Positions 1 to 19,959 of a stretch of DNA of 64,000 bases are shown one piece after another; positions within the stretch are counted from its first letter, which is position 1; the number at the start of each line of letters is the position of its first letter. The stretch is from assembly GCF_000971215.1 (NCBI RefSeq), contig NZ_BBMA01000002.1, positions 479,111-543,110 of the forward strand, written 5' to 3'. This stretch comes from Demequina silvatica. GTDB taxonomy: Bacteria; Actinomycetota; Actinomycetes; Actinomycetales; Demequinaceae. Made by a program: the position numbers and the translations under genes. Under the pieces are notes generated by a model. That model was given only the letters and a program-made list of their open reading frames with translations, did no database searches and had not been told where the DNA came from.

Positions 1-341
1 CCCCCACCCCCAGCCCCTCCGCCACCGAGACCGTGGACGTCTCGACCGGCGACGTCGCCGTGGTGATCTCGCGCGCGGCCGTCAGGAAGGGCACGTTCGA
101 GGTGGGCGGCTACGTCGACGGCGTCACCGAGGACGGCGGCACCTGCACCGTCACCATGGCCACCGACGGCCGCGAGGTGGTCCTCGAGGGGCCCGGTCTC
201 ATGAACGCGACCACCACCAGCTGCGGCGCCGAGCTCTCCATCCCGGCGTCCAAGGTGGCCGGCACGTGGAGCGTGACGCTCACGTACCGCTCCGCCGCGC
301 ACGAGGGCACGTCCGCCCCGACGAAGGTGACGATCCCATGA
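1..341 (+). CDS. C-terminal end of a secreted or surface protein (partial)
   Basis: The frame is open from the left edge (first full codon at position 3) and ends at the TGA at 339-341. It begins with a Pro/Ser/Thr-rich stretch that looks like an extracellular linker, followed by about 100 residues with the alternating beta-strand pattern of an Ig-like or adhesin domain and two cysteines that could pair. The start lies outside the window, so the protein's main function cannot be read. Its stop overlaps the next start as ATGA, so it is probably translationally coupled to the LGFP-repeat protein and works with it at the cell surface. No family is recognised with confidence. Confidence 0.6.
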   Translation, partial: PTPSPSATETVDVSTGDVAVVISRAAVRKGTFEVGGYVDGVTEDGGTCTVTMATDGREVVLEGPGLMNATTTSCGAELSIPASKVAGTWSVTLTYRSAAHEGTSAPTKVTIP

Positions 342-4432: not shown

Positions 4433-5800
4433 TCACTTGCCGCCCGCGGCGCGGGCGACCTTCCTGGCCCGCGCCTTCGCGACCGACGCGCTCTTACGCA
4501 GGTCGCCCGCCGCATCGTGCCAGCCCACCTTGCGCGCGGCCCGCGACAGCTGCGTCGGCAGGCCGGTGCCGCCGGGCAGGTCGAGGGCGCCCAGGCGCCC
4601 GCCCGCGAAGTAGCGCTCGCGCTCCTCCTCGTCGAGCCCGCCGATGAAGTCGACGGCGTCCTCGCGCAGGTGCCCGGCGATGATGGGCTGCATGCAGTAG
4701 CCCACCGCGTTGATGAGGCGCTGCAGGTCCTCGACGGCAGCGTACGGGCTGTCGGGGCGCGTCATGGCGTCGACCACGGTGACGGGCACGCGGTTGCTGT
4801 TCTCGTACGGGTCGAGGCGCTTCGCGAGGCGCTTGTTGCCGATCGAGTCGACGGGGATGCCGAACAGCGCGGCCGCGGACGGGATGGCGGTGGAGAAGCC
4901 GGCGACCACCGCGACGCAGTTCGCGCGGGCCATGAACGCCTCGGCGGGGGTCGCGGACTCGTAGACCACGAAGTCCACGCCCTTCTTGGCCGCGGCCTCC
5001 GCGAGCTGCGCGGTGAGCATGGGCGGCGCGGACGGGTGCGGCTTGAAGACGATGCGCTCGCCGCCCATCGCGACGGCACGGTTGACCATCCGGATGAGCG
5101 TGTCCCGCTCCTCCTTGCGCGACATGAGGCCCAGCTCCGAGAGGTACTGGCCGAGCACCAGGCCGGTGGGGCGGGTGTCCGCGAGCAGCTCGGCGAGCTG
5201 CGGGTCGTCGCACGCGTCGGCGACCTCCTCGAACAGCCGGCGCACGTGGTCGGTGGTGACGGGCGCGAGCCCGATGCCCTGCTCCGAGAACAGCACCGGC
5301 TGCACGCCCGGCAGCACGTCCTGGTAGATCAGGGTGGTGAGGCGGCTGGTGATGCTGAACGGGATCTTCATGCGGATCGGGCTGAAGCTCATGAGGCCGT
5401 CGCCGATCACGGTGATGGGACCGCCGTCGAAGATCATCGCGAGGGAGGTCGACGGCGGCACCTGCAGGTTCTGCAGGTACAGCTCGACCTCGCCGTCGCC
5501 GAGCTCCCAGTAGGAGCGCAGCAGGCGCCGCCACATGGGCATCTCGATCCAGCGCGGGCTCCACGCCTGCGGGAGGTAGGGCGAGGTGAGCGGGTTGAGC
5601 TCGATCACGCGGTCGAAGCGCGAGATGACGGGCTTCATCTCCTCGAGCTCGTAGAACGGGGTGACGATCTCGGGGACGGGGGCGCCCACGTGGACCACCA
5701 GGATGCGCTCGCCGCGTCCCTCGGGGACCAGGCCCGCGTCGATCGCGGCGGCGGCGGTGACCGCGCCGTACGCGGTCGCGATGGAGAACAGCTGGGGCAT
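4433..5800 (-). CDS. Polysialyltransferase-like (POLYSIA family) glycosyltransferase
   Basis: A 455-residue protein starting MPQLFSIATAYG. It resembles the alpha-2,8-polysialyltransferase (POLYSIA) family of GT-B enzymes: a short N-terminal strand for nucleotide-sugar binding, a central VFKPHPSAPP segment (the HP motif of sialyl- and CDP-glycerol-type transferases at about residue 270) and a later AGFSTAIPSAAALFG segment, matching the conserved S/T-S-rich motif before the last Rossmann helix. The C-terminus is Lys/Arg-rich, compatible with membrane association. The start codon shares one nucleotide with the upstream stop (TGATG). With NeuA and NeuB homologues in the same operon, the inferred job is polymerising or adding nonulosonic acid residues. 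Confidence 0.7.
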   Translation of the reverse strand: MPQLFSIATAYGAVTAAAAIDAGLVPEGRGERILVVHVGAPVPEIVTPFYELEEMKPVISRFDRVIELNPLTSPYLPQAWSPRWIEMPMWRRLLRSYWELGDGEVELYLQNLQVPPSTSLAMIFDGGPITVIGDGLMSFSPIRMKIPFSITSRLTTLIYQDVLPGVQPVLFSEQGIGLAPVTTDHVRRLFEEVADACDDPQLAELLADTRPTGLVLGQYLSELGLMSRKEERDTLIRMVNRAVAMGGERIVFKPHPSAPPMLTAQLAEAAAKKGVDFVVYESATPAEAFMARANCVAVVAGFSTAIPSAAALFGIPVDSIGNKRLAKRLDPYENSNRVPVTVVDAMTRPDSPYAAVEDLQRLINAVGYCMQPIIAGHLREDAVDFIGGLDEEERERYFAGGRLGALDLPGGTGLPTQLSRAARKVGWHDAAGDLRKSASVAKARARKVARAAGGK

Positions 5801-6786
5801 CAGGAGGCGCTCCTCGTGCGAGCGGTGCGCGTGTAGCGCGCGAGCGTGAGGCGCCGGCGGCCCGGGCCGCGGTGCAGGGCGTCCCGCACCACGTCCTGCG
5901 GCAGCGCGGCGATGAGGTCCGCGACGCCGGCCTTGAGCCGCTCGCGGTCCTCCGTCGACATGCGGCGGCGGCGGCGCAGGTGGTGCGCCGAGACGGCGAG
6001 CGTGGTGGCGGTGAGCTTCGCCATGAAGCGGTCCGCCTCCGGGTCCGCCTCGACCACCTGGCGCGTCATGTCGAACGAGCGGATGAAGTCGAGCTGGCGC
6101 GAGTCGAAGATCTGCGTCAGCGAGGTGCTGACCTCGCGGCGGTACAGCAGCGAGGGGGCGTCCACCACCGCGAAGGACTCCGCGTTGAGGTGGAGGTTCC
6201 AGATCCACGGGCGGTCCTCCGCCGTGAACAGGCCCTCGGGGAAGGCCAGCATGCCGCGGTCGTGCAGGCGGCGGTGGAACAGGCCGGCCCACGCGTACGG
6301 GTAGTCGACCATGGTGGTCTCCCGCGCCGGCAGGATCGCCTCACGCGGGCTGACGGCACGACCGCGCCACGGGAAGGGCGCCCGCACATGCGAGCGCGCT
6401 CCCGCGGCGACGGTCGTGTGATCCGTCCGGATGAAGTCGACGTCGAGACGGTCGGCGGCGTCGATGAGCGTCTGGAGGCGCCACGGCTCCATCCAGTCGT
6501 CACCGTCGATGAAGGCGACGTAGTCGCCCTCGGCATGCTCGAGGCCCATGTTGCGGGCGCTCGCGAGGCCCACCGCCGTCGGGTTCTCGATCACCTCGAG
6601 GTGCGAGAACGCCCCGTCGAAGTGACGGATGACCTCGGCGGTGCCGTCCGTCGAGCCGTCGCTGATCGCCACGACCTTGAGGTCTCCCGGCTCGCGCACC
6701 TGCCGCAGCAGGCTCTTGAGCGTCGTGCCGACGTACCCTTCGCCATCCTTGACCGGCAGGATGACGGTGATGCGCGGTTGTGCCAC
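5800..6786 (-). CDS. Family 2 glycosyltransferase
   Basis: A 328-residue GT-A fold enzyme. The N-terminus has the ITVILPVKDGEGYV strand-loop that opens GT2 domains, DGSTDGT at residues 43-49 for the nucleotide, and FIDGDDW with the metal-binding Asp motif at about 93-98. The second half is helical and Arg-rich and probably sets the acceptor. No membrane segments are seen, so it acts in the cytoplasm on lipid-linked or soluble intermediates of the glycan. It lies 63 nt after neuB and is coupled by TGATG to the POLYSIA-like gene. The sugar donor cannot be inferred. Confidence 0.85.
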   Translation of the reverse strand: MAQPRITVILPVKDGEGYVGTTLKSLLRQVREPGDLKVVAISDGSTDGTAEVIRHFDGAFSHLEVIENPTAVGLASARNMGLEHAEGDYVAFIDGDDWMEPWRLQTLIDAADRLDVDFIRTDHTTVAAGARSHVRAPFPWRGRAVSPREAILPARETTMVDYPYAWAGLFHRRLHDRGMLAFPEGLFTAEDRPWIWNLHLNAESFAVVDAPSLLYRREVSTSLTQIFDSRQLDFIRSFDMTRQVVEADPEADRFMAKLTATTLAVSAHHLRRRRRMSTEDRERLKAGVADLIAALPQDVVRDALHRGPGRRRLTLARYTRTARTRSAS

Positions 6787-6849: not shown

Positions 6850-7725
6850 CTAGCCGTCGACGCGACGGAGCTTGGACAGCGGGGCGAGCTCGCCGGGGAA
6901 GACCTTCTTGACGCCGTCGCCCAGGGCCTCCTCGATGATGCGGATGTCGCGGCACAGCGAGATGAAGCCCTTGGGCTCCAGCGACGCGGCGTGGTCCGAA
7001 CCCCACATGGTGCGGTCGAGCGTGATGTGACGCTCCACCGCGACGGCGCCGAGGGCGACCGCGGCGATCGAGATCTGCAGGCCCGGCTCGTGACCCGAGT
7101 AGCCCACCGGCACGCCGTAGCGGTCCTTGAGGGTCTGGATCATGCGGAGGTTGGCCTCCTCCGGGGGCAGCGGGTAGGTCGAGGTGGCGTGGAGGATGAT
7201 GAGCTTGTCCTTGCCCAGCGTCTCCACCGCGGTGTCGATCTGCTCGATGGTCGACATGCCGGTCGACAGGATGACGGGCTTGCCGGTCTCCTTGATCTTG
7301 CGCAGCATGCCCAGGTCCGTCACGGACGCCGAGGCGATCTTGTAGGCGACCGTGTCCATCGACTCGAGGAAGTCGACGCTCGGCTCGTCCCACGGGGAGG
7401 CGTACCAGACGACGCCCTTCTCCTTGCAGTACGCGTCGATCTCCGCGTACTCGGCCTGCTCGAACTCGACCTTGTAGCGGTACTCGAGGTACGTCATCGT
7501 GCCCCAGGGCGTCTCGCGCGGGGTCGACTTCATGTGCTCCGGCGTCGCGATGTCCGGCGTGCGCTTCTGGAACTTGACCGCCTGCGCGCCCGCCTCGACA
7601 GCGACGTCGATGAGCTTCTTCGCGTTCTCGACCGAACCGTTGTGGTTCAGGCCGATCTCGGCGATCACATAGGTCGGGTGACCGTCACCGACGAGAATGT
7701 CGCCGATCCGCACCGCATCCGTCAT
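6850..7725 (-). CDS. neuB: NeuB-type nonulosonic acid synthase lacking a SAF domain
   Basis: A 291-residue TIM-barrel synthase. Enzymes of this family condense phosphoenolpyruvate with a six-carbon sugar (ManNAc, mannose or a 6-phosphate) to make a nonulosonic acid. Visible landmarks are IAEIGLNHNGS (21-31), KFQKR (51-55), YASPWDEPSVDFLE, ILSTGMST, a GYSGHEPG segment and the terminal ERHITLDRTMWGSDHAASLEP motif, so the catalytic barrel is complete. Classical NeuB proteins carry about 60 more residues, the SAF antifreeze-like domain; here the protein ends right after the barrel. The GAGGAAC ribosome site 5-6 nt before the ATG supports the start. It is the key evidence that the locus makes a sialic-acid-like sugar. 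Confidence 0.88.
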   Translation of the reverse strand: MTDAVRIGDILVGDGHPTYVIAEIGLNHNGSVENAKKLIDVAVEAGAQAVKFQKRTPDIATPEHMKSTPRETPWGTMTYLEYRYKVEFEQAEYAEIDAYCKEKGVVWYASPWDEPSVDFLESMDTVAYKIASASVTDLGMLRKIKETGKPVILSTGMSTIEQIDTAVETLGKDKLIILHATSTYPLPPEEANLRMIQTLKDRYGVPVGYSGHEPGLQISIAAVALGAVAVERHITLDRTMWGSDHAASLEPKGFISLCRDIRIIEEALGDGVKKVFPGELAPLSKLRRVDG

Positions 7726-7927: not shown

Positions 7928-10066
7928 TCAGCCGCGGGCGCCGAGCGTCAGCGCCACCGTGGCCGCGTCCTTCGCGCGCGCGTCGCCGAGCCAGCCGAGC
8001 TCCACGCCGGGGTCGAACCGCCTTCCGCGGCCCATCGCGACGGACAGCGCGCCCAGGCAGGCCTCGGCGGCGTGGTCGATCGCGAGCGCGTCGCCGGCCG
8101 CGGCCGGCAGGGCGTGCGGCTCGGCATCCTCCTGTGCCTCCCACGCGCGCAGCAACGGCGCCGCATCGGGGATCAGGGAGCCGATGCGGCGGGCGGCCGC
8201 GTGCCTGGCCTTGCGGTGCCTCGCGAGCACGGATGGGTCGATGACCAGGGACGACGCCTCGAACGGGCGTGCGCGGCGCAGCCCGGACGTCGCGCCCACG
8301 AGCATGACGGCGGCGATCCCGCTCGCCTCCGCGCGCCGGCCGTGCCACGTGCGCTCCGCGGCGGCCACCACCGCGGACTCCGCCCCGGTGAGGCGGCGCA
8401 GCATGCGCGGCGCGGCCGCGACCGCGACGCCCGCCACCTGAGGGTGACCGGCGATGAGCTCGACCGTGTCGGCCAGCTGCGCCGGGGAGGGCAGCGCGCC
8501 CCACCGGCCCCACGAGTCGGGCGCGGTCGCCCAGCCGGACCAGGCGGCGAAGCCGGAGGCGCCGCCGAGCACCAGGGCCCGCTCCCACGCGGCGGAGATC
8601 TCGTCCGGGAGGTCGGGCAACTCGATGGTCACGGTGACAGGGCGGTCGAGCGCGTCGAGCGCGCTCTTCACCTCGTCGCCCGACCAGGATCCGGGCCAGC
8701 CCACCGCCACCAGGCCGCCGTCGGCGTCCTCGGCGGCCGCCAGCGGCGCCACGCCCCCGCGACGGGACGCGGGCCGGTCGGTCTCGCGCGCGAGCTCCGC
8801 GTGGAGGGCGCGCTCCGCGAGCAGGTGCGCCTGCGCGGGGCGCACCCCGGCGGCGAGCGCGGCCGCGCCGGCGTCGGCTCCGGCGAGCACCCGCAGCGTC
8901 GGGCTCGCTCCGGCCGCGACCGCGGGGACCGTGTCGAGGGCGCGCGCGTGGGGCGCGGACGCAAGCAGCCGGGCCGGCACGTCGCGCTTGACGCCGTGGA
9001 AGCCCACTCCGGCGGAGACGGCGCGCGCCGCGATGCCGGCGAGTCCCACGCCCACCACCTCGGCGGACGCGGTGCGCGTGGTGACCGGCACGTTGCCGCG
9101 GGGCGCTGGCCGGCGGGCGTACTCGTCGAGGTCGCCGATCACGCGGACGCCGGCGGCGCGGGCCTCGCGCACGCCGCGCGCGGCGACCTCGACGGCCGTG
9201 TCCAGCCACGCGTCCGGGAGCGCGAGGGTGCCCTCCTCGGGCGCGGGGGTGCGGACCCGCTGGAGCCCGCCGATCAGGCCGCCGCGCACCGCGGGGCGGT
9301 ACAGCGCGGCCGGCCAGCGGTGCGGCTCGAGCCCGGCGTTGACGGCGCGCAGCAGCTCGACCTCCTCGAGCGACAGCCCGCGGTTCGCCTGGAACGCGTT
9401 GATGCGCTGCGGCTGGAGCGTGCCCTCGGGCACGTCGAGCAGCGCCTCGAACGAGCGGTAGACGCGGTCGGGGTGCTCGCGGTCGAGCACCACCACGGTG
9501 ATGCGGTCGGGGTCGACGATGGTCGACCAGCGCTCGGCGAGCTCGCCCAGGTCGTGCCGCGGCCAGAAGTTCGGGGTGGTGACGCTGCCCGGCTCGCCCG
9601 TGAACACGTCCTCGAGCCACGCGTCGAAGGACACCGTGCGGCGCTCCTTGACGTACTGCTGCCATATCGAGGGCAGCATCGACACGAAGTTGCGCACGGT
9701 GAGCACGATCCGCACGTCCGCGCCCAGGTCGTCGACCAGGCGGCGGATGCGGGCGGGGGTGGCGGCGGCCAGGTGCTCCGCGCTGATGAAGGCGCGCTTG
9801 CCCGAGGCGTGGACGTCGGCGACGAACTCCTCCCAGCGCCGCTCGGCTGCGGGGCTCGCGACGTCGGCGCGCTTCATGGTCCACAGGAACGCGGTCTCGT
9901 CGCTGTGGTGCGCCGCGTTGCCGGGGTACACCACGCCCTGCTCGGAGAGCCGCTCCCGCGCGGCGGCGGCGGCCACCTGGATCGCGGTGGTCGCGGACTT
10001 GTGCATGCCGATGTGGATCACGTGGCGTCCGGAGGGGGTCCGGCCGTCCAGGGAGTCCGGGGTCAT
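7928..10066 (-). CDS. Sulfotransferase family protein with long C-terminal extension (copy 2)
   Basis: A 712-residue protein whose first 330 residues are sulfotransferase-like: HIGMHKSATTAIQ at 18-30 as the PAPS loop, then FISAEHL and a VLTVRNFVSMLPSIWQQ segment matching the 3'-phosphate-binding region, and an NRGLSLEEVELLRAVNAGL helix shared with the other copies. The remaining 350 or so residues are Ala-rich with no domain I recognise, including a GWPGSWSGDEV segment. The frame stays open far upstream of the real start; I chose the ATG with AAGGAG 7 nt ahead of it. It follows the DUF6716-like gene by 14 nt. Inferred role: transfer of sulfate to the locus glycan. Confidence 0.7.
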   Translation of the reverse strand: MTPDSLDGRTPSGRHVIHIGMHKSATTAIQVAAAAARERLSEQGVVYPGNAAHHSDETAFLWTMKRADVASPAAERRWEEFVADVHASGKRAFISAEHLAAATPARIRRLVDDLGADVRIVLTVRNFVSMLPSIWQQYVKERRTVSFDAWLEDVFTGEPGSVTTPNFWPRHDLGELAERWSTIVDPDRITVVVLDREHPDRVYRSFEALLDVPEGTLQPQRINAFQANRGLSLEEVELLRAVNAGLEPHRWPAALYRPAVRGGLIGGLQRVRTPAPEEGTLALPDAWLDTAVEVAARGVREARAAGVRVIGDLDEYARRPAPRGNVPVTTRTASAEVVGVGLAGIAARAVSAGVGFHGVKRDVPARLLASAPHARALDTVPAVAAGASPTLRVLAGADAGAAALAAGVRPAQAHLLAERALHAELARETDRPASRRGGVAPLAAAEDADGGLVAVGWPGSWSGDEVKSALDALDRPVTVTIELPDLPDEISAAWERALVLGGASGFAAWSGWATAPDSWGRWGALPSPAQLADTVELIAGHPQVAGVAVAAAPRMLRRLTGAESAVVAAAERTWHGRRAEASGIAAVMLVGATSGLRRARPFEASSLVIDPSVLARHRKARHAAARRIGSLIPDAAPLLRAWEAQEDAEPHALPAAAGDALAIDHAAEACLGALSVAMGRGRRFDPGVELGWLGDARAKDAATVALTLGARG

Positions 10067-10080
10067 GGCGTCTCCTTCGC

Positions 10081-11286
10081 TCACTTCCGGCGCCCCCGCA
10101 CTGTCGATTCGAGCCACCGTACCAGCGGGCGTGCGAGCCGCATCAGGCGGCCGGTGAGGCTGGTGTCCGCGTCGCCGAGCGCGACGGCGCGACGGAACAT
10201 GCGCCTGCGCAGCTGCAGCGGGGATGCGAGCCGGTCGGGCAGCGGCGCCGGGTCGCCCGGCTCCATGCCGCGCGCGACCTCGACCCAGTCGTCGTCGCCG
10301 TGGAAGTAGTTGGCCGCCAGCCAGTCGGGGTCGGGCGCACGGAAGCGCCGTGCCTCGAGGTCCGCGAGCCCGCCGAACAGGCCCGACCCCTCGAACACCG
10401 CGTTGATGACGTCGGCGCTCACGCCGAACTCGTCGAGGACCAGGGTGGGCACCCCGGCGGCGATCGCTTCGAGCGCGGCGGTCGAGCTCACCGTCACGAA
10501 CCCCTCGCAGTCGCCCAGGTACGCGCGCAGCGGGCCCTGCGCGAACACCAGGTTCCCGGGCAGGTCCATCCCCTCGGCCAGCGCGTCGTACGGCGCGGCC
10601 TCCTTGTGGGTCTGCGCCTCGCCGGCGACGCCGCGCAGCTTGACCACCACGTCGAGCTCGGGGTGCGCCGCCGCGAGGGCGCCGAGCGACGCGAGCAGGC
10701 GGCGGCGGTCCTCCAGCGCGGCCGGCACCAGGGCCTGCGGCGCGAAGACGATGCGGGGGCGGGGCGAGCGGCCCACCTCCTGGTCCTCGATGAGCGAGGC
10801 GAGACCCACCGCGCGGAGGCGTCCCTGCGGCAGCGTCTCCGCGACGGCGTCGCGCTCCCGCTCGGAGTGGACCACCATGAGGTCGCAGGCGGCGCGCAGG
10901 CGCAGCCCCAGCTCGGTGGGCGGGTACCAGATGCCGGGGATGCCGGCCGCGACCACGGTCGCGGCGCGACGCCCGCCGAGCCGCTCGAGCAGCAGCAGCT
11001 CGATGAGCGGGCCGCGGCATGCGAGCAGCAGCAGCGCGGGGGGCGTCAACCGCAGCCGCGACACCAGCGCGTCCATCCCGATGATCGCGGGCGCCGCGGA
11101 CAGCCGGCCGTCGACGGCCGCGTCCATCTGCGCGGCGCTCGGGGTGACGGCGTTGCGGACCACCAGCAGCTCGACGTCGTACGTTTCGCGCAGGTCCTCG
11201 GCACGCCGCACGGCCCACTTCAGGTACGAGTCGGAGTCCGCGACCACCAGGGCGCGCGGACGGGGGGCGGGCGTGGGCTCAGCCAC
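10081..11286 (-). CDS. Putative GT-B glycosyltransferase (DUF6716-like)
   Basis: A 401-residue protein resembling the actinobacterial DUF6716 'putative glycosyltransferase' group. The N-terminus has an ALVVADSDSYLKWA strand-loop. The second half has an IVFAPQALVP strand and a FVTVSSTAALEAIAAGVPTLVLDEFG segment, which is the classic GT-B nucleotide-sugar site (S-S-T-A...E-A...G-x-P) also seen in CDP-glycerol and sialic acid transferases. The C-terminal 50 residues are basic. It overlaps the NeuA-HAD fusion gene by 8 nt, so it is tightly coupled to production of the activated sugar. The assignment is by fold pattern, and the donor is inferred to be CMP-nonulosonate. Confidence 0.6.
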   Translation of the reverse strand: MAEPTPAPRPRALVVADSDSYLKWAVRRAEDLRETYDVELLVVRNAVTPSAAQMDAAVDGRLSAAPAIIGMDALVSRLRLTPPALLLLACRGPLIELLLLERLGGRRAATVVAAGIPGIWYPPTELGLRLRAACDLMVVHSERERDAVAETLPQGRLRAVGLASLIEDQEVGRSPRPRIVFAPQALVPAALEDRRRLLASLGALAAAHPELDVVVKLRGVAGEAQTHKEAAPYDALAEGMDLPGNLVFAQGPLRAYLGDCEGFVTVSSTAALEAIAAGVPTLVLDEFGVSADVINAVFEGSGLFGGLADLEARRFRAPDPDWLAANYFHGDDDWVEVARGMEPGDPAPLPDRLASPLQLRRRMFRRAVALGDADTSLTGRLMRLARPLVRWLESTVRGRRK

Positions 11287-12427
11287 GGGCCGCGAGGATC
11301 GCCTCGGCGAGCTCGCGCACCGCTCCGCGCCCGCCGGGCCGCGTGAGGACCACGCGCGCGACCGCGGCGGCGCGCGGGTGCGCGTCCGCGGGCACCACGG
11401 CCCAGCCGACGGCCTCGAGGCAGGGCAGGTCGGGCAGGTCGTTGCCCACGTACGCCACGCGGTCGAGCGGCACGCCCTTCTCCGCGCACCAGCGCTCGAG
11501 GTAGGGCAGCTTGTCCTCGACGTCGTGCGAGACCTCGATGCCTAGCTTGCGCGCCCGCGCCGCGACCACGGGGTTCTCCTCGCGCGACAGGATCAGCATC
11601 GGCAGCCCCGCCTTGCGCAGCATCGCGATCCCCATGCCGTCGGAGCGGCTCACGGTCACCGACTCGACGCCGTTCTGGTCCACGGTCGCGGTGTCCTCGG
11701 TGTGGACGCCGTCGAAGTCCATCACCAGCGCGTCGACGTCCACCGGGGCGGGCGCGTCGAGCAGGGAGGCGAGGGCGCGCGCGGAGGCGAGCTCGTGCGC
11801 ATCGTCGATCTCGATGCCGGTGGCGGCGGAGACCTCCGCGATGCCCACGCGGCCGAAGAAGCGGAAGCCGGACTCGCGGAAGCCCGCGACGTCCATCACG
11901 TAGAAGGCGCCGGTCTCCTGGTAGTGCGGCTCGCGGTCCTGGCGGCGCGGTCGGAACGAGTGGTCGTGGTTGACGCCGGTGGCGCCCGACTCCCCCTGCT
12001 GCCACAGGAACGCGTAGGTCTCGAACGCGGAGAACATCGAGTCGTGCTCGCCCGCGAGCACGGAGGCCACGGCGCCGTCGAGCGCGGCGGGGTCCATGAA
12101 CGGCGACGTCGCCTGGAGGAACGCGAGCGCCTGCGGCTCGATGCCGCGCACGGCGAGCGCGTCGAGACCGTGCAGCAGCGCCGCCTCGGAGGTCGCGAGG
12201 TCGCCCGCGATCTCGGCGGGACGGTCGATCACGTCGCCGCCGGCGGCCCGCGCGGCGGCCGCGATCTCCGCATCGTCCGTGGACACGAACACGCCGTCGA
12301 TCGACGGCGCGGCCAGCGCCGCCCTCACGGCGCGCGCGACGAGCGGCACGCCGCCCACCCGCGCGACGTTCTTCCCTGGCACGCCCTTGGACCCGCCGCG
12401 GGCGGGGATGATGGCGACGGCACGCAT
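11279..12427 (-). CDS. CMP-nonulosonate synthetase fused to a KDO8P-type HAD phosphatase
   Basis: A 382-residue two-domain protein. Residues 1-228 are a NeuA-type cytidylyltransferase: IIPARGGSKGVPGKN at 6-20, FVSTDD at 47-52 and LQATSPF at 104-110. Residues 229-382 are a C0-type HAD phosphatase like KDO8P phosphatase or Kdn-9-P phosphatase: nucleophile motif DFDGVHT at 237-243, LSREE near 280-284, and YVGNDLPDLP at 327-336. The fusion suggests the pathway goes through a nonulosonate 9-phosphate that is dephosphorylated and activated by one polypeptide. The start is 1 nt after the upstream stop, and the end overlaps the next gene by 8 nt. The gene that makes the six-carbon precursor is not in the window. 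Confidence 0.88.
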   Translation of the reverse strand: MRAVAIIPARGGSKGVPGKNVARVGGVPLVARAVRAALAAPSIDGVFVSTDDAEIAAAARAAGGDVIDRPAEIAGDLATSEAALLHGLDALAVRGIEPQALAFLQATSPFMDPAALDGAVASVLAGEHDSMFSAFETYAFLWQQGESGATGVNHDHSFRPRRQDREPHYQETGAFYVMDVAGFRESGFRFFGRVGIAEVSAATGIEIDDAHELASARALASLLDAPAPVDVDALVMDFDGVHTEDTATVDQNGVESVTVSRSDGMGIAMLRKAGLPMLILSREENPVVAARARKLGIEVSHDVEDKLPYLERWCAEKGVPLDRVAYVGNDLPDLPCLEAVGWAVVPADAHPRAAAVARVVLTRPGGRGAVRELAEAILAARG

Positions 12428-12428
12428 G

Positions 12429-13397
12429 TCAGTCCTCCTCGGATTCGGCCTCGTCGGCCCGCGCGAGGTACGCGAGCGTCTCACGGAACGTCTGGTCGGC
12501 GCGGGGGGTCCACCACTCGTCGTGGACCGCGGTGACGGTCATGACGGTGCCCACGGGGAGCACGCGTGCGAGCGTGGCGCCCGTGCTCGACGGCAGCGAG
12601 TGGACCTGGGCGACGCCGCGGGCGCTGCCGAGCACGATCTCGGCGGGCAGCCCCGGCTCGACCACCGCGAGCCCGGCGGCGCGGAGCCGGTCGAGCGCGG
12701 CCGGGTCCTCGCGCCGGTGCGGCAGATAGGTCGCGTCCGCGCCGTGCGCGGCGGCCCAGGCCTCGTACCGGGCGGCGTCGACGTAGCCGTCGACGGCGAG
12801 CGCGGAGCCCAGCACCACCACGGACCGCAGGTCCACGGGCGGCTGCGCGTCGAGGGAGCGCAGCCACGCGTAGCGGTTGGGGACGATGCGGGCGCCGGGT
12901 ACCGCGGGCATGCGCGGGTGGTCGGCGTAGGCGGTGACCAGGGTGATGCGTCCCGCGCGGGCGGCGGCCCGCAGCCGGGAGCCGGTGAGGCTGCCCAGGG
13001 TCCGCTGCACCGCGGACTCGCGCTGGCCCATCCGGGAGAAGCGCTCGATGCCGGCGAGGACGGCGGCGAGGTGCAGCGCGGCGGAGCCGTCGTCGACCAC
13101 CACGAGGTCGCGCGTGCCGGTCGCGGTCACCACGGCGCGGAACTGCCCCGAGAACGCGTCGCCGACCAGCCTGCGGGAGGCGTCCCTGAAGCGCGGGTCG
13201 GTGGCGGAGGCGGCCTCCGCGAGCGTCACGCCCGCGGGCAGGTAAGGCTCGAGCCACCGGGAGGTGTCCTCGAGCTGGGCGACGCCGCGCCGCAGCAGGA
13301 TGAGGGTGGCCTCATCGAGGCCGGCCGCCGCCTCGACAGCGTTGATGAGCTGGAGGGGCGACTCGACCCAGCCGATGCGCGGGTCGGCGACGGTCAC
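12429..13397 (-). CDS. Putative sialyltransferase-like protein of the glycan locus
   Basis: A 322-residue protein starting at a GTG that overlaps the exporter ATPase stop as GTGA. It opens with RIGWVESPLQLINAVEA; the S-P-L-Q-L motif close to the N-terminus resembles bacterial sialyltransferase families of the GT-B type (GT52 and polysialyltransferase groups). A later VVLGSALAVDGYVD segment and an HRRED segment fit the second Rossmann half. The frame extends 24 codons upstream but without a better start. Placed between the exporter and the CMP-sugar synthetase, it most likely transfers the activated nonulosonic acid. I recognise the pattern, not a proven member, so the call is tentative. Confidence 0.5.
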   Translation of the reverse strand: MTVADPRIGWVESPLQLINAVEAAAGLDEATLILLRRGVAQLEDTSRWLEPYLPAGVTLAEAASATDPRFRDASRRLVGDAFSGQFRAVVTATGTRDLVVVDDGSAALHLAAVLAGIERFSRMGQRESAVQRTLGSLTGSRLRAAARAGRITLVTAYADHPRMPAVPGARIVPNRYAWLRSLDAQPPVDLRSVVVLGSALAVDGYVDAARYEAWAAAHGADATYLPHRREDPAALDRLRAAGLAVVEPGLPAEIVLGSARGVAQVHSLPSSTGATLARVLPVGTVMTVTAVHDEWWTPRADQTFRETLAYLARADEAESEED

Positions 13398-14128
13398 TGC
13401 GACTTCTTGTAGGCGCGGACGACCTCCTTGGGGTCGCCGTCCGCCTTGAGCGTGCCGTGGTCGATCCACAGCACGCGCGTGCAGGTGTCCATGATCGAGC
13501 GCATCGAGTGGCTCACCAGGAACACGGTTCCCGCCTGCTCACGCAGCTCGCGGATGCGCTGCTCGCTCTTGGCGCGGAAGTCCTTGTCGCCCACCGCGAG
13601 GGCCTCGTCGACCAGCAGGATCTGGTGGTCGCGCGAGATCGCGATGGAGAAGCGCAGGCGCGCCGCCATGCCGGACGAGTACGCCTTCATGGGCATGTCG
13701 ATGAACTCGCGGATGCCGGAGAACTCGATGATCCCCTCGCGGCGCTGCTCGACCTCCTCGGGGGTCATGCCGAGCGCGAGGCCGCCGAGCATGACGTTCT
13801 TCTCGCCGGTGAGGTCGCTGATGAGCGCGGCGTTGACGCCGAGCAGGGCCGGGCGCGACACGGAGTACACGGCACCCTTGACCGGCTGCTGCAGGCCGGC
13901 GATCGCGCGCATCAGCGTCGACTTGCCGGAGCCGTTGTGGCCGATCACGCCGATCGACTCGCCCTCGTAGGCGGCGAAGGACACGCCCTTGAGCGCCTTC
14001 ACGATGCGCACGCCGCGCTGGCGCTGCATGAGCGAGCGACGGTCGGACGCGGCCTTGCCGGAGGCGAACGTCTTGTACTGCACGTGGATGTCGTCCACCA
14101 CGATGGTGGGCTTGCGGGGCTCAGTCAC
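13394..14128 (-). CDS. ABC polysaccharide exporter, ATP-binding subunit (TagH/KpsT/Wzt type)
   Basis: A 244-residue ATPase. The Walker A motif GHNGSGKST is at 63-71, the signature is the degenerate YSSGM typical of polysaccharide and teichoic acid exporters instead of LSGGQ, and Walker B is ILLVDEALAVGD. An N-terminal stretch of about 45 residues rich in Arg/Lys precedes the first strand, as in TagH-type proteins. There is no carbohydrate-binding C-terminal domain, so the length is the short KpsT form. It overlaps the permease gene by 8 nt and the downstream transferase by GTGA. It powers export of the assembled glycan across the membrane. Confidence 0.92.
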   Translation of the reverse strand: MTEPRKPTIVVDDIHVQYKTFASGKAASDRRSLMQRQRGVRIVKALKGVSFAAYEGESIGVIGHNGSGKSTLMRAIAGLQQPVKGAVYSVSRPALLGVNAALISDLTGEKNVMLGGLALGMTPEEVEQRREGIIEFSGIREFIDMPMKAYSSGMAARLRFSIAISRDHQILLVDEALAVGDKDFRAKSEQRIRELREQAGTVFLVSHSMRSIMDTCTRVLWIDHGTLKADGDPKEVVRAYKKSQ

Positions 14129-14984
14129 GGCCGTAGCGCTCCTCGGCGGTCCAGAAGAAGAAGACGCCCGCGATCAGGGTGACGACGGAGGCGATCGCGG
14201 CGATGACCGCGAGCTGCGTCATGTCCGTCTCGGAGCCCATGAACGCCCAGCGCACCAGCTCCACGAAGTCGTGGATGGGGTTGAGGCGCGCCGCCGTAAG
14301 CATCCAGTGGGGCTGGTCCGCGAGCACCTGCTCGAGCGAGTAGAAGATACCCGTGGTGTAGAAGATCAGGCGCGTGATGACCGGGATGACCTCGGTGACG
14401 TCGCGCACGTGCACCGTGAGGCGGGCCGCGATGAGCGCGACGCCCAGGTTGAACATGGTCATGAACGCGAGGATCACGGGCACCAGCAGCCAGGTCCACA
14501 TGGGGAACTCGCCGAAGCCGATGAGGATGAACACCAGGACCGCCATCATCGGCACGAGCTCGTAGAGGTTGCGCAGCACGGCGGCCACGGGCAGCAGCAT
14601 GCGCGGGAAGCTGAGGCTGCGCACCAGGGACGTGTTGCCGGTGATGGACCGGGCGCCCTGGGCGAAGGACTTGCTGAAGAACGTGAAGATGAAGAAGCCC
14701 GTCACCAGGAACGGGATGAAGTTGATGCCCTCGCGGGTGTCCTTGGGCAGGATCACGCCGAAGATGAGGCCGTACACGGCGGCCTGGAGCAGCGGGCTCA
14801 GCACCACCCAGAAGAGGCCCAGGCGGTTCTGGTTGAGGCTGCCCTCGATGCGGTACTGCGCGAGCCGCACCGCGAAGTGACGGCGCTGCCACATCTCCTT
14901 GAGATACGTGGGCAGCGCCTGTCGCGCGCCAACGCGCGGCAGGCCCGCCTCCCGCGCGAGCGCGGCGTAGTCGATCTCGGTCAC
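14121..14984 (-). CDS. ABC polysaccharide exporter, permease subunit (TagG/KpsM/Wzm type)
   Basis: A 287-residue membrane protein of the ABC-2 exporter family with about six hydrophobic segments, including LLQAAVYGLIFGVILP, VTGFFIFTFFSKSF, and a last helix near the C-terminus (VIAAIASVVTLIAGVFFFWTA; hydrophobic run split here for length). The 'FFIFTFFSKS' and 'NPIHDFVELVRWAFMG' segments are family hallmarks. It partners the ATPase that overlaps it by 8 nt. Together they form the exporter for the locus product, placing the pathway in the ABC-dependent class rather than the Wzy-dependent one. Confidence 0.9.
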   Translation of the reverse strand: MTEIDYAALAREAGLPRVGARQALPTYLKEMWQRRHFAVRLAQYRIEGSLNQNRLGLFWVVLSPLLQAAVYGLIFGVILPKDTREGINFIPFLVTGFFIFTFFSKSFAQGARSITGNTSLVRSLSFPRMLLPVAAVLRNLYELVPMMAVLVFILIGFGEFPMWTWLLVPVILAFMTMFNLGVALIAARLTVHVRDVTEVIPVITRLIFYTTGIFYSLEQVLADQPHWMLTAARLNPIHDFVELVRWAFMGSETDMTQLAVIAAIASVVTLIAGVFFFWTAEERYGRD

Positions 14985-16032: not shown

Positions 16033-16679
16033 GTGTTCCTTCCTACGGGCAGCAGGCGGCGGATCAGCGCACCCGTGCTCAGCGAGTCGAGGCTCGGCCC
16101 CGTGCGGTCGCGCTCGCGCGGGTCGCACAGGAGCGGCGTGCCGTCCGGATCCTCGAAGGCGAGGCCGTGGCCCAGCAGGACCGAGACGGCGCCGGCGACC
16201 GCCGCCTGAGCGGTCGCGGCATCAAGCATCTCATCCGTCCGCGGCTCGCCGGGCGTCGCGTACAGGGCGTGCAGCACGCCGCCGCGCACCACGGACCGGC
16301 GCACGTCGGCCGGGGTGGGGGTGCCGTCGAGTCCGCGGTCGATCGCGGCGAGCAGCCGGAGCTCGCCGGCGGTGAGGGGTCGCGGCTCGGCGACGGGGGT
16401 CCCGGCCGCGGCACCCAGGCCGCCGGCGGAGGGGCGGACGATGCGCGCGTCGGGTCCCGCGGCACGCACCAGTCTGCGGGCGCGCACCCAGGCGCGGGCG
16501 GTCGCGATCGCGAGCGACGGGACGCGCTCGCCGGCGGCCATCGCGTCCTGGCGGTCGAGCACGGCCGCGAGGCGCGGCGGGCGCAGGATCACCAGCTGCG
16601 GCCCGGGCGTCCGCATCGCGTGCGCGGCGGCCAGCGCGCGCCGGTCAGCGCGGCACAGCGTGACCGCGGCGCGCCTCAT
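16029..16679 (-). CDS. Short protein resembling only the C-terminal part of the sulfotransferases
   Basis: A 216-residue protein coupled by ATGA to the upstream sulfotransferase and by GTGA to the downstream GT2. It has no PAPS-binding loop. Residues from about 120 on, with LTAGELRLLAAIDRGL and RRSVVRGGVLHAL, resemble by eye LSLEEVELLRAVNAGL and YRPAVRGGLIGGL of the large sulfotransferase at 7928-10066. It may be a degenerate or split paralogue, or an accessory subunit. The N-terminal 80 residues are not recognised. Function unknown. Confidence 0.6.
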   Translation of the reverse strand: MRRAAVTLCRADRRALAAAHAMRTPGPQLVILRPPRLAAVLDRQDAMAAGERVPSLAIATARAWVRARRLVRAAGPDARIVRPSAGGLGAAAGTPVAEPRPLTAGELRLLAAIDRGLDGTPTPADVRRSVVRGGVLHALYATPGEPRTDEMLDAATAQAAVAGAVSVLLGHGLAFEDPDGTPLLCDPRERDRTGPSLDSLSTGALIRRLLPVGRNT

Positions 16680-17872
16680 CGCGCCACCGTCCGGCGCGCA
16701 CGGCGGCGCAGCTCGCCGAGCGCCGCGCGCGGCGACGGAGCGGACGGGGCCGCGCCCTTGGGGTGCGGCGCGAGGCGCGCGCCGGTGAAGTTCACGCCCT
16801 CGCCCAGCGCCGCGGACGTCGCGCCCAGCACCGCGAGCGCGGCCAGCTCCGGGTCGATCGCGGCGTGAGGGGCGGGGAGCGTCTCCGGGGCGGAGGCGGA
16901 CGGCGCGCCCAGGGCGGCGAGGTCGCCGATCACGTCGACGCCCAGCTCGCCGAGCGCGCGTGCCGCGGCGGCGCCCTCCTGCGCGAGGCGCGCGGCGACG
17001 GCGGCGGATGCCACCACGGATCCCTCGGCGGGGTCGGGCCGCCGGTCGCGCAGCACGGCGCTCACGGCGCCGTTGCGCATGACGCGGTAGTAGTGGCGCG
17101 GGTTGACCGCGGCGGCGCCGGCGCGTGCGCGGGCGTTGACGCCCTGCGCGAGCTCGGCCTCCGCGCGCGACAGGCCCCTGTTGCTCAGCAGCGGGTCGCG
17201 CGGCGCGGACGCGAGCGTGCCGGGCGTGAGCCCGAGCAGCCCCTCGAACGCGTCGAACAGCAGCTCCGGGCGGCGCTTGTCGAGCACCACCACGTGGACG
17301 CGGTCGGCGCCCACCAGGTCGGCCCAGACGCGGGCGATCGCGGGCAGGTCGTAGGCGCGCCAGAACCCCAGGGTGGCGGTCTCGGGGCCCTGGACCCCGT
17401 CGCGCGCCGCCAGCACGCGGTCGAGCCACGCGCCGAAGGTCTGGTCGCCGGCGTCCTTCACCCACTGCTGCCACGCGGAGGCGAACAGCGACACGTAGTC
17501 GCGCGCCGTGATGGCCACGTGGAGGTCCGGGCCCAGCTCCTCGAGGAACCGCGCCGCGACGGCGGGGGTGGCCTGCACCATCTGCTCGTAGCTGAGGAAG
17601 CCCACCGCCTCGGGGTGCTCGCGGCGCTCACGCGCGACGCGGTCCCAGCGGGCACGACCGCCGGCGGCGAACACCGCGGTCGAGCGGCCCATGAGCGCGT
17701 TGGCGGCGGTGCCGTGGTTGAGCGAGACGCCCGGGTAGCAGACGCCCTGCGCGAGCAGCTCGGTCCGCAGCTGCGAGGCGGCGGCCTGGACGGCCGTGGT
17801 GCCGGTCTTGGGCAGCCCGATGTGCAGCAGCGTCGCTCCTGGTCGCAGAGCCTTCACGCCGGCCACGCTCAT
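16676..17872 (-). CDS. Sulfotransferase family protein (copy 3)
   Basis: A 398-residue protein with LHIGLPKTGTTAVQ at 16-29, the best-conserved PAPS loop of the three copies, followed by FLSYEQM, an ITARDYVSLFASAWQQW segment and NRGLSRAEAELAQGVNA. Those blocks match the copy at 7928-10066 one for one, so the two are paralogues. It is the first gene of the long minus-strand operon. I start it at the ATG with GGAG a few bases upstream; another in-frame ATG exists at 17920 but without a ribosome site. Probable role: sulfation of the cell-surface glycan in the cytoplasm before export. Confidence 0.78.
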   Translation of the reverse strand: MSVAGVKALRPGATLLHIGLPKTGTTAVQAAASQLRTELLAQGVCYPGVSLNHGTAANALMGRSTAVFAAGGRARWDRVARERREHPEAVGFLSYEQMVQATPAVAARFLEELGPDLHVAITARDYVSLFASAWQQWVKDAGDQTFGAWLDRVLAARDGVQGPETATLGFWRAYDLPAIARVWADLVGADRVHVVVLDKRRPELLFDAFEGLLGLTPGTLASAPRDPLLSNRGLSRAEAELAQGVNARARAGAAAVNPRHYYRVMRNGAVSAVLRDRRPDPAEGSVVASAAVAARLAQEGAAAARALGELGVDVIGDLAALGAPSASAPETLPAPHAAIDPELAALAVLGATSAALGEGVNFTGARLAPHPKGAAPSAPSPRAALGELRRRARRTVAR

Positions 17873-18039
17873 GGGCTCCGCGCCGCCTTCCCTGGGAAAC
17901 GAGTGGATGAACCTCAGCATGGTAAGTGACGGCCGCGTGCCCGCCGACCGGGCCTCGGTCCGGGGTCGCGAGCCGGCCCGCCGTGGGAGAATCGGGCGAC
18001 CGTGAGCCCGATGGGGCGCACACGCGAGCTGGAGGGCCC

Positions 18040-19959
18040 ATGACCGACGGATTCACCCGAGCCTGGCGCGCCGCGCGCCGCGTGACTCGTGCGGGGTCCT
18101 CGGAACCCACCCCCGCGCCTGCGCCCGAACCGGCGCCCGAGCCGCCCGCCGCATCGTCCCCCGCGCCCGCGCCGAAGCCCGCCCCGTTCAGCGCGCTCGA
18201 GGTCGAGCGCGTGCGCGCGGCCGGCGGGCCGTTCCCCGGGTCGGTGCGCCAGTCGGAGAACCCCGAGGACCTCGCGTCGCTGCTGGCCGGCACGTACGAG
18301 TACGCGCGCCTGGGCGACGTGGGTGAGGAGGGGCCGCCGCCCGCGGACCTGGTGTTCGCGGCCGTCTGCAACGACAAGTACGCGCCCGGCCTCGAGGCGC
18401 TGCTGCTCAGCCTGCTGCGCCAGTACCCCGGCCTCGACAACCGGTTCCTGGTGTTCCACGACCAGGGCCTGTCCGCGTTCACCCGGCGGCGGCTCACCAC
18501 GCTGTACCCGCGCCTCGAGTTCCTCGACCGTGACCCCGACGTCTACGACGTCACCATGGCGGACCACTACAACCACCGGAAGATCGGCCACCTGGGCTAC
18601 CTCACGCTCGAGGCGCTCACCATCGCCGAGCCGTCCTGGATCGTGGTGCTCGACACCGACCTGCTGGTGCTCGGCGACATCTCCGCGCTGTGGCGCGGCG
18701 ACTCCATCAAGGCGGTGCCGGACATCGGGCACCGGCCGTACTCGATCCAGGCGGCGGCGACCGGCCGTCCCGTGATCAACAGCGGCATGCTGTCGCTGCC
18801 GCGCTCCGAGCGCGGACCCGAGGCGCGCGAGCGCATGGAGCGGGTGCTCGCGTCCGTCGACGCGACCTCGGACCCCGCGCTGGACATGTTCGCGGACCAG
18901 AAGTTCTGGAACCTCTACCTCGCCGAGCGCGAGGTCGAGCTGCTGCCGCAGACGTACAACATGAACAAGATGACGCTGGAGACGGACTACCCGGAGGAGG
19001 TGGGCGCCGTCCGGATCCTCCACCTCACCGGCCCCAAGCCCTGGTACGGGTTCCTGTCCGACGACCTTCTCGAGGCGGAGGACCGCCAGCGCTACCGCCG
19101 CGCGTCCAACCGCTTCAAGATGTCCTTCGCGCTGTGGACGCAGCAGTACGTGTCCGCGATCACCGCGGCCAGGACACGGCAGTTCCGCGCCGAGGAGGGC
19201 GCGACCCTCGAGGCGCTGCACGGGCGGGCGGAGGGGCGGCCCGTGGTGCTGATCGGCAACGGGCCGTCGCTGCGCGACACGGACATGACCGCGTTCGAGG
19301 GTTACGAGTCGGTCGCGTTCAACTGGTTCGTCAACCACGAGGACTTCGACGCCATCCGGCCGGACCACCTGGTGCTGCCGTCCCACATGCTCTTTGGCGG
19401 ATGGCACACCACCGCGCCGGAGCTGCCGCGGGAGTACCTGGACGCGCTCACCCGGCACGAGCACCGTCCCGTGCTGTGGACGTCCTTCTACTTCAAGCCC
19501 TACCTCGAGTCGCTCGAGGAGCTGCGCGGCTACGAGATCCGCTACTTCCTGTTCGAGAAGCCGTTCAAGCGCAGGATCGCGAAGACCGGCTGGGCGCCGC
19601 TGGACCTGCTCGCGCCGCTGGTGGACTCCAACACCGGCGTGCTCACCGCGGGCGTGCCGATGGCGCTGCACATGGGAGCCTCGCGGATCGTGCTCGTGGG
19701 CTGCGACTCGAACTACACGAGCGCCGCGGGCAGCTACTTCTACGAGTCGGACCAGCACGCGTCCAAGACCACCCGCCCGTCGCAGCTCATCGCGACGTGG
19801 GAGCAGGGCGGCGAGGGCCCGCTGGGCTACGCCGTGGTGCGGCGCGAGCTGGACCGGCGCGGGGTGCCGTTCCTCGACGCGACCGTGGGCGGCAGCCTCG
19901 ACATGCTCGAGCGCATCACTGTCGAGGAGGCGCGGGCGCTGGGCGTCACCGCGAGCTGA
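18040..19959 (+). CDS. GT8 glycosyltransferase fused to an MptE-like (DUF115) domain
   Basis: A 639-residue protein with a GGAGG site 4 nt before the ATG. After a Pro/Ala-rich linker (about 20-60) comes a GT8-type GT-A domain: FAAVCNDKYAPGLEALLLSL, then VVLDTDLLVLGDI with the DxD metal motif, INSGML, and ILHLTGPKPW with the terminal H-x-x-G-x-x-K-P-W motif, all GT8 hallmarks. From about residue 390 a second Rossmann-like domain begins with VVLIGNGPSLRDTD, the nucleotide loop of the MptE-like/DUF115 family linked to motility-protein and nonulosonate glycans, and ends with VLVGCDSNYTS. It is transcribed divergently from the sulfotransferase operon and belongs to the same glycan locus. Confidence 0.75.
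   Translation: MTDGFTRAWRAARRVTRAGSSEPTPAPAPEPAPEPPAASSPAPAPKPAPFSALEVERVRAAGGPFPGSVRQSENPEDLASLLAGTYEYARLGDVGEEGPPPADLVFAAVCNDKYAPGLEALLLSLLRQYPGLDNRFLVFHDQGLSAFTRRRLTTLYPRLEFLDRDPDVYDVTMADHYNHRKIGHLGYLTLEALTIAEPSWIVVLDTDLLVLGDISALWRGDSIKAVPDIGHRPYSIQAAATGRPVINSGMLSLPRSERGPEARERMERVLASVDATSDPALDMFADQKFWNLYLAEREVELLPQTYNMNKMTLETDYPEEVGAVRILHLTGPKPWYGFLSDDLLEAEDRQRYRRASNRFKMSFALWTQQYVSAITAARTRQFRAEEGATLEALHGRAEGRPVVLIGNGPSLRDTDMTAFEGYESVAFNWFVNHEDFDAIRPDHLVLPSHMLFGGWHTTAPELPREYLDALTRHEHRPVLWTSFYFKPYLESLEELRGYEIRYFLFEKPFKRRIAKTGWAPLDLLAPLVDSNTGVLTAGVPMALHMGASRIVLVGCDSNYTSAAGSYFYESDQHASKTTRPSQLIATWEQGGEGPLGYAVVRRELDRRGVPFLDATVGGSLDMLERITVEEARALGVTAS

Follow-up and report, generated by a model that had tools for sequence, protein, structure and literature searches.

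The gene at positions 11279-12427 of a 64,000-nucleotide stretch of Demequina silvatica DNA (hereafter the window; NCBI RefSeq assembly GCF_000971215.1, contig NZ_BBMA01000002.1, positions 479,111 to 543,110) encodes a single polypeptide in which a NeuA-type cytidylyltransferase domain is joined to a C0 HAD phosphatase domain. The pathway proposed, whose catalysis, substrate, order of steps and polymer we infer from sequence and to which a probability of about three in four is given, would run from mannose-6-phosphate (Man-6-P) to the 9-phosphate of 2-keto-3-deoxy-D-glycero-D-galacto-nononic acid (Kdn), then to free Kdn and to CMP-Kdn, with the final two steps in the fused protein, and would feed an exported polymer. 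A NeuB without a SAF domain (6850-7725) would condense Man-6-P with phosphoenolpyruvate to Kdn-9-phosphate (Kdn-9-P). In the fused protein, the C-terminal HAD domain would strip the 9-phosphate using Asp237 as nucleophile, Asp239 as acid/base and Mg2+, and the N-terminal NeuA domain would convert free Kdn and CTP into CMP-Kdn. The transferases of the locus (the DUF6716 protein, the PF07388 protein and a family at 12429-13403) would place Kdn into a glycan, to be exported by an ABC transporter.

The extent of the gene given in an earlier note on this DNA proved exact: the frame runs on the minus strand from an ATG at 12427 to a stop at 11279-11281 (382 aa). The ATG is preceded within a few bases by AGGAGG, and the G+C content at third codon positions is 0.97, against 0.72 for the whole window. 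The joining of a NeuA domain and a C0 HAD phosphatase in one polypeptide, also claimed there, was confirmed by Pfam, by the PDB, by an AlphaFold2 model and by an alignment of 69 fused proteins. Pfam CTP_transf_3 covered residues 4-175 (E = 2.8e-21, 76.8 bits; gathering cut-off 22.6). The top PDB sequence relative of the NeuA half was PpNeuA (9t4z, 100.6 bits), titled a CMP-Kdn synthetase and probably the Prymnesium parvum enzyme, followed by the mouse synthetase of CMP-N-acetylneuraminic acid (CMP-Neu5Ac; 94.9 bits). When this half was aligned over 39 fusions, A9, R10, G12, S13, G15, K19, N20, Q105, R162, Q163, E206 and D208 were invariant; the A9-N20 block corresponds to the conserved N-terminal ARGGSKG..KN motif of NeuA. 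For the HAD half, the PDB sequence relatives were 3mmz (170.8 bits), 4nav (84.5), 3mn1 (81.3), BT1713 (3e81, 80.6) and 3ewi (73.7), scores that indicate no special closeness to the mouse CMP-sialic acid synthetase C-domain that 3ewi represents. The PDB title of 3mmz names a HAD hydrolase of Streptomyces avermitilis; it is 54% identical to the HAD half and, unlike it, is a single-domain chain (176 aa). The AlphaFold2 model had a mean predicted local distance difference test score (pLDDT) of 92.7, and VIA-align placed residues 1-225 onto NeuA structures and residues 224-382 onto KdsC and Kdn-9-P phosphatase structures (Z about 25-28). An assembly artefact can be dismissed as the origin of the fusion, since 69 fused proteins, from the window and from 68 of 80 fetched loci, align over both domains; the nearest fused proteins, 88-94% identical, came from Demequina records.

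The HAD domain has a complete set of active-site residues. D237, D239, K306, D330 and D333 were kept in 69 of 69 aligned fusions, and position 281 was Ser in 68 and Thr in one; the roles assigned to them (Asp nucleophile, Asp acid/base, Mg2+) are general to the HAD superfamily, and together they argue for an active phosphatase. The earlier note had proposed a comparison of substrate residues with the Bacteroides Kdn-9-P phosphatase, BT1713. Read by eye from five PDB alignments, E283, R291 and K294, also kept in all 69 fusions, line up with its Glu56, Arg64 and Lys67, and 3mmz has the same three markers. E56 and K67 reportedly matter for BT1713 specificity, as Lu is said to have found in 2009, and in accord with this the PDB entries 4hgr and 4hgq are titled as Kdn-9-P phosphohydrolase mutants, E56A/K67A and E56A respectively. 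At positions 56 and 67, where the fusion has E/K, the KdsC-like entries read R/S (3mn1), R/D (4nav) and A/Q (3n1u). A plain Kdo-8-phosphate (3-deoxy-D-manno-octulosonate 8-phosphate) phosphatase was rejected on these two positions, so that the label 'KDO8P-type' used in the earlier note fits the fold and fails for the specificity. Action on some other sugar phosphate, be it Kdo-8-phosphate or the 9-phosphate of another nonulosonate, for instance a modified Kdn, seems a slim prospect: the overall similarity to KdsC enzymes is nearly that to BT1713, but positions 56 and 67 equal those of BT1713, and a NeuB-type synthase constantly accompanies the fusion.

Whole-domain comparisons are less kind to the assignment. 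The HAD half scored 94.9 bits against the NCBIfam KDN-9-P phosphatase model (NF058599), whose cut-off is 180, and was for that reason likened to this enzyme in its presumed working and not filed under the model; it also fell short of the KdsC family TIGR01670 (79.6 bits; cut-off 106.95). Its identity to BT1713 (36%) is not separated from that to KdsC-like entries (27-36%), its fold ties with KdsC entries in VIA-align, and the NeuA half ties in the same way (Z within 1) with the CMP-Neu5Ac synthetases 1eyr and 6ifd. Aligned fusions go down to 43% identity with catalytic and specificity residues intact. The active sites of C0 HAD proteins sit at subunit interfaces, as in the BT1713 and mouse structures, and because of this the fused protein would be expected to form a homotetramer.

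The same order of domains, NeuA and then C0 HAD, is seen in the vertebrate CMP-sialic acid synthetase, whose mouse C-domain (3ewi) aligned at Z 25.1. According to PMC8636478, such a C-domain occurs in no organisms other than vertebrates and some bacteria, its role is still discussed, and in mouse it lacks phosphatase activity in vitro; the fusion, by contrast, has complete active-site residues. The earlier note had reasoned that the fusion implies the 9-phosphate route; because the vertebrate enzyme shares the layout and the mouse C-domain is reported without activity, the step from architecture alone is unsafe. The route itself is nonetheless likely here, because the HAD domain keeps both the catalytic residues and the Kdn-9-P markers and because one type of NeuB, described below by its fingerprint, travels with the fusion. 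A HAD domain that is structural only, acting in oligomerisation as proposed for the vertebrate enzyme while another phosphatase or none serves the pathway, is very improbable, since under relaxed selection some of the residues that all aligned fusions keep should have been lost; what speaks for it is the vertebrate domain order, the mouse result and two loci from Phycisphaerales and Acidimicrobiaceae metagenome-assembled genomes. In these (L070:9836-11662 and L071:9623-11573; loci and genomes used for comparison carry L and G numbers) a fingerprint NeuB lies next to a NeuA without HAD, and no HAD relative was found in either locus at E 1e-5, which also counts against the pathway proposed.

The partner NeuB of the window (6850-7725) had no Pfam match to a SAF domain, and against the N-acetylneuraminate synthase model TIGR03569 it scored 278.1 bits over model positions 1-270 of 329, below the cut-off of 399.65. 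Nine of its positions (Q53, K54, R55, R83, E87, S110, W112, G211 and R232) form a fingerprint, which fusion-linked NeuBs read as QKR[RK]ESWGR (L114 has K for R83); SAF-length NeuBs read Q and then T, S, I, H or L at the start of these columns and mostly FDK at the end. The fusion-bearing genomes or records considered numbered 71, namely the window, 68 fetched loci, and L113 and L114 (Sinorhizobium meliloti and Nonomuraea records), and 68 of them have a fingerprint NeuB. For 49 of the 71 fusions it lay within the fetched stretch, two of these also having a SAF-length NeuB; the other 22 comprised five with a SAF-length NeuB only and 17 without any NeuB in the fetched stretch. When the genomes of 21 of these 22 were searched, a fingerprint NeuB was found elsewhere in 19, including all five of the SAF-length-only cases. 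The in-locus count omits three NeuB pieces, L028, L051 and L060, whose match ends short of query position 240; two of the genomes concerned, those of L051 and L060, were covered by the later search. L081 duplicates the window, and L086-L104 repeat NeuBs of the same genus; without L086-L104, 51 of the 70 QKRRESWGR sequences remain. Sequence identity of the window NeuB was 33-36% with four members of the second fusion-linked group and 37-38% with three SAF-length NeuBs, and an unrooted tree set the SAF-less groups apart from the SAF-length group with a support of 0.997 (0.99 without the marker columns). In view of that separation, convergence of the fingerprint in two NeuB families is not claimed. 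SAF loss alone was rejected as a marker, since the Leptospira chain 6ncs (290 aa) is as short as the window NeuB but carries Ala where that has K54, and SDH in place of SGH.

Several points tell against so close a tie between this NeuB and the pathway. The absence of the SAF domain was tested by Pfam for the window NeuB and judged from length for all others. No fingerprint NeuB was found in the genomes of L029 and L049, among the 21 searched (L028 lay outside the search). The NeuB alignment holds no characterised 9-phosphate synthase, and the link of the fingerprint to the fusion is correlative as regards the predicted use of Man-6-P. Because the tree splits SAF-less from SAF-length NeuBs, shared ancestry may account for some of the fingerprint. 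In Demequina litorisediminis (L062:9914-12183) the NeuA and HAD domains lie in different frames, through a gene split or an assembly error; this locus was left out of the fusion counts, and its fingerprint NeuB has an open frame extending 74 residues beyond the barrel. Apart from these points, the genus has a third kind of NeuB (L013:19869-21137 on the minus strand, L105 and L107), short after the barrel, in long open frames of 423-534 aa and with the fingerprint QKRRESLSK; among the genomes that carry it, those of L013 and G022 have the fusion and G007 lacks it.

A further weakness is that the fingerprint columns had been picked on this first set, and for this reason a phylum-wide draw of 149 genomes was made. 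Besides the window's own genome, 15 had a NeuB, defined as a match above 60 bits (weaker matches are probably DAHP-synthase relatives), and 13 of them gave a complete one. All four fingerprint NeuBs of the draw (L118, L119, L121 and L124; L119 with Lys at position 83) were short and had a full NeuA-HAD fusion adjoining, whereas a full fusion was absent from all nine genomes carrying a SAF-length NeuB. Epimerase_2 exceeded its cut-off in one of the four fingerprint genomes against seven of the nine SAF-length genomes, a match of 18.3 bits in G165, under the cut-off, being counted as absent; the single fingerprint genome that carries it (G168) speaks against the proposal. Outside the 13 stood L128, with a damaged frame, and L129, at a contig edge, which reads QKRKESW before it is cut and lies beside a HAD-only frame. 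Second NeuB matches in G165, G185 and G103 did not enter the counts.

The 9-phosphate route starts from a sugar phosphorylated at position 6, and in it Man-6-P leads to Kdn and N-acetylmannosamine-6-phosphate (ManNAc-6-P) to Neu5Ac (PMC6200933, PMC7845648). The earlier note had raised the possibility of Kdn rather than Neu5Ac, and Kdn is favoured on gene content: the genome of the window (2.9 Mb, 99.97% complete; window in contig 16) has no Epimerase_2 match and no recognisable NanE (the sole match, at 19.9 bits and thus under the cut-off, is TrpC), and it does have a mannose-6-phosphate isomerase homologue (PMI_typeI_cat, 80.1 bits, over the Pfam cut-off). The best NCBIfam names for this isomerase agree, at scores below the cut-off for the piece given. 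Among 41 genomes of the genus, NeuB occurred in 20 and Epimerase_2 in seven, with no overlap (0 of 20 NeuB-bearing against 7 of 21 NeuB-free genomes; Fisher p = 0.0086, kinship ignored). The full-length fusion, DUF6716 and the fingerprint NeuB were found in the identical 19 of the 41, none of which had a recognised UDP-N-acetylglucosamine (UDP-GlcNAc) 2-epimerase (Epimerase_2); the twentieth NeuB genome, G007, has a different SAF-less NeuB type. Partial fusion matches (G018, G007 and second matches in G022 and G035) were not counted. One of the 19, G034, has a strong NanE match (180 bits), a point against Kdn.

The main rival keeps the bifunctional enzyme and replaces Kdn by Neu5Ac, with ManNAc or ManNAc-6-P coming from a source not recognised as such: either DUF6716 acting as a divergent UDP-GlcNAc 2-epimerase, or an AGE-family protein plus a kinase. 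This we hold to be unlikely, though less so than the alternatives concerning the HAD domain. AGE-family proteins occur in all 41 genomes of the genus, but equally in those without NeuB, and of the two in the window's genome one scores 391 bits as a D-mannose isomerase and the other 240 bits as a cellobiose epimerase, far above their 26 and 38.5 bits for AGE, though none of these scores reaches its curated cut-off. The DUF6716 protein occurs, among the 41 genomes, in exactly the 19 with the fusion, and its model (mean pLDDT 90.7) lies nearest to UDP-GlcNAc 2-epimerases (Foldseek 1.9e-11; VIA-align Z about 20); because of this fold, a cryptic ManNAc source beside the fused gene is possible, and were DUF6716 to make ManNAc, the sugar could be Neu5Ac. 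GT-B glycosyltransferases appear lower in the same fold lists, however, and a profile comparison with three epimerases of the genus gave no relation (probability 0.1, E 0.57); the DUF6716 profile had no PDB sequence match at E <= 1. The glutamates invariant in those epimerases are catalytic, and the conserved acidic residues of DUF6716, compared by eye at the sequence level, offer no counterparts of them. An epimerase role is thus disfavoured, although it stays a rival, and DUF6716 would more plausibly be a glycosyltransferase, as its Pfam description has it, and a candidate CMP-Kdn-using one. Of 70 fused loci, some of them incomplete, 57 have a DUF6716 relative, and on pSymB of S. meliloti the NeuB, fusion and DUF6716 genes are consecutive.

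The remaining genes of the locus are consistent with the assembly and export of a Kdn glycan (Table 1), and more than one family 2 glycosyltransferase lies around the fused gene. Relatives of the family at 12429-13403 lie in 23 of the 70 fused loci, each of these being actinobacterial; in the PDB and Pfam the family gave chance-level matches only. It has invariant D105 D106 G107 and H230 as well as a PSS motif, which to our eye resemble the motifs of bacterial sialyltransferases; its profile matched that of the PF07388 family weakly (E 0.057), with the HP and S/T regions lining up, and H259 P260 and S307 T308 are invariant in the PF07388 alignment. This suggests that the 12429 protein may be a bacterial sialyltransferase-like enzyme.

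Table 1. Features of the Demequina silvatica locus (positions in the window)
Feature	Position	Strand	Remarks
Alpha-2,8-polysialyltransferase family (PF07388) protein, candidate polymer-forming transferase	4433..5812	-	91.1 bits; start not certain
Family 2 glycosyltransferase	5800..6786	-	Domain match
SAF-less NeuB, predicted Kdn-9-P synthase, 291 aa	6850..7725	-	Pfam NeuB 282 bits
DUF6716 putative glycosyltransferase	10081..11286	-	Pfam DUF6716 367.7 bits; 8-nt overlap with fused gene
Fused gene, predicted CMP-Kdn synthetase and Kdn-9-phosphate phosphatase	11279..12427	-	382 aa, ATG start
C0 HAD phosphatase domain, cap-less, residues 231-382	11282..11737	-	D237, D239, S281, K306, D330/D333; markers E283, R291, K294
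Linker, residues 209-230	11738..11803	-	Length and sequence vary among aligned fusions
NeuA-type cytidylyltransferase domain, residues 1-208 (~1-210)	11804..12427	-	Pfam CTP_transf_3; PDB relative 9t4z
Family without database match	12429..13403	-	1 nt from fused gene; start codon not certain
ABC transporter ATPase, polysaccharide-export type	13394..14128	-	Top NCBIfam match teichoic acids export ATPase, 187.5 bits, below cut-off
ABC transporter permease	14121..14984	-	Pfam ABC2_membrane 57.4 bits; NCBIfam galactan export permease 85.7 bits, below cut-off

Three proteins of the minus strand (3119-4417, ~7928-10048 and 16676-17920) share, by eye, a HIGxxxxxTT-like start; the second and third match Sulfotransfer_4 below the cut-off, the first has no such match, and the polymer might be sulfated. 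A two-part protein (17926-19959, plus strand) is Glyco_transf_8-like at its N-terminus and MptE-like at its C-terminus, both matches lying under the cut-off. Near one end of the locus stands a protein with 11 LGFP repeat matches (266-3076, plus strand), and near the other one combining Acyl_transf_3 with an SGNH acyltransferase (19975-22086, minus strand).

Among known systems, the Kdn pathway of Bacteroides thetaiotaomicron comprises the same three activities as are proposed here (Kdn-9-P synthase, the phosphatase BT1713 and CMP-Kdn synthetase) and shares the HAD markers E56/R64/K67; there the activities reside on separate proteins (three accessions in PMC6200933; the BT1713 chain has 164 aa), whereas two of them are fused in the window. 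In P. parvum, the probable source of PpNeuA, the top relative of the NeuA half, the Man-6-P route has been demonstrated, but the algal synthetase has 273 aa and ends in a membrane segment, and a search for a phosphatase homologue in the alga reportedly found none (PMC6200933). The Streptomyces teichulosonic acid region SCO4873-SCO4882 serves a Kdn-containing actinobacterial wall polymer (PMC11481543, PMC13011467) and is likened to the present locus by its polymer, not by gene content. A Kdn-containing polysaccharide has also been reported from S. fredii (PMC9000132, PMC7845648), plasmid records of which carry the fusion, strains not being matched to those of the polysaccharide reports. Where Kdn occurs in prokaryotes it is, for the most part, an internal polysaccharide residue, and the bacteria concerned are mainly environmental ones (PMC7845648). 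Given this, the gene content of the locus and the Kdn polysaccharides of S. fredii and Streptomyces, the likeliest product here would be an exported polymer containing Kdn.

The NeuA-HAD layout and Kdn pathways were known separately; what appears to be new is a bacterial fusion with a complete Kdn-type phosphatase site, tied to a recognisable type of synthase. No published assay of a bacterial NeuA-HAD fusion was found in the part of the openly licensed PMC literature surveyed, which is not proof of absence in print. Public plasmid records label such genes 'acylneuraminate cytidylyltransferase' or 'CMP-N-acetylneuraminic acid synthetase', suggesting ordinary sialic acid. As a broader and more tentative proposal, to which we would give somewhat less than even odds, a widespread module, consisting of a SAF-less Kdn-9-P synthase with the signature QKR / [RK]..E / S.W / SGH / ERH, the bifunctional fusion and DUF6716, which would then be a new CMP-Kdn-using glycosyltransferase family, may make Kdn polymers in many Actinomycetota and Alphaproteobacteria, so that Kdn would be predictable from sequence and far commoner than the chemically proven cases. 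If the pathway is correct, the fused protein would be a natural two-step biocatalyst, and an active bacterial fusion could be set beside the vertebrate CMP-sialic acid synthetase to compare the C-domains. The fusion together with its partner NeuB would serve as a sequence test separating producers of Kdn by the 9-phosphate route from makers of other nonulosonic acids; Kdn wall polymers would then be predictable from genomes, and builders of Kdn could be told from builders of ordinary sialic acid.

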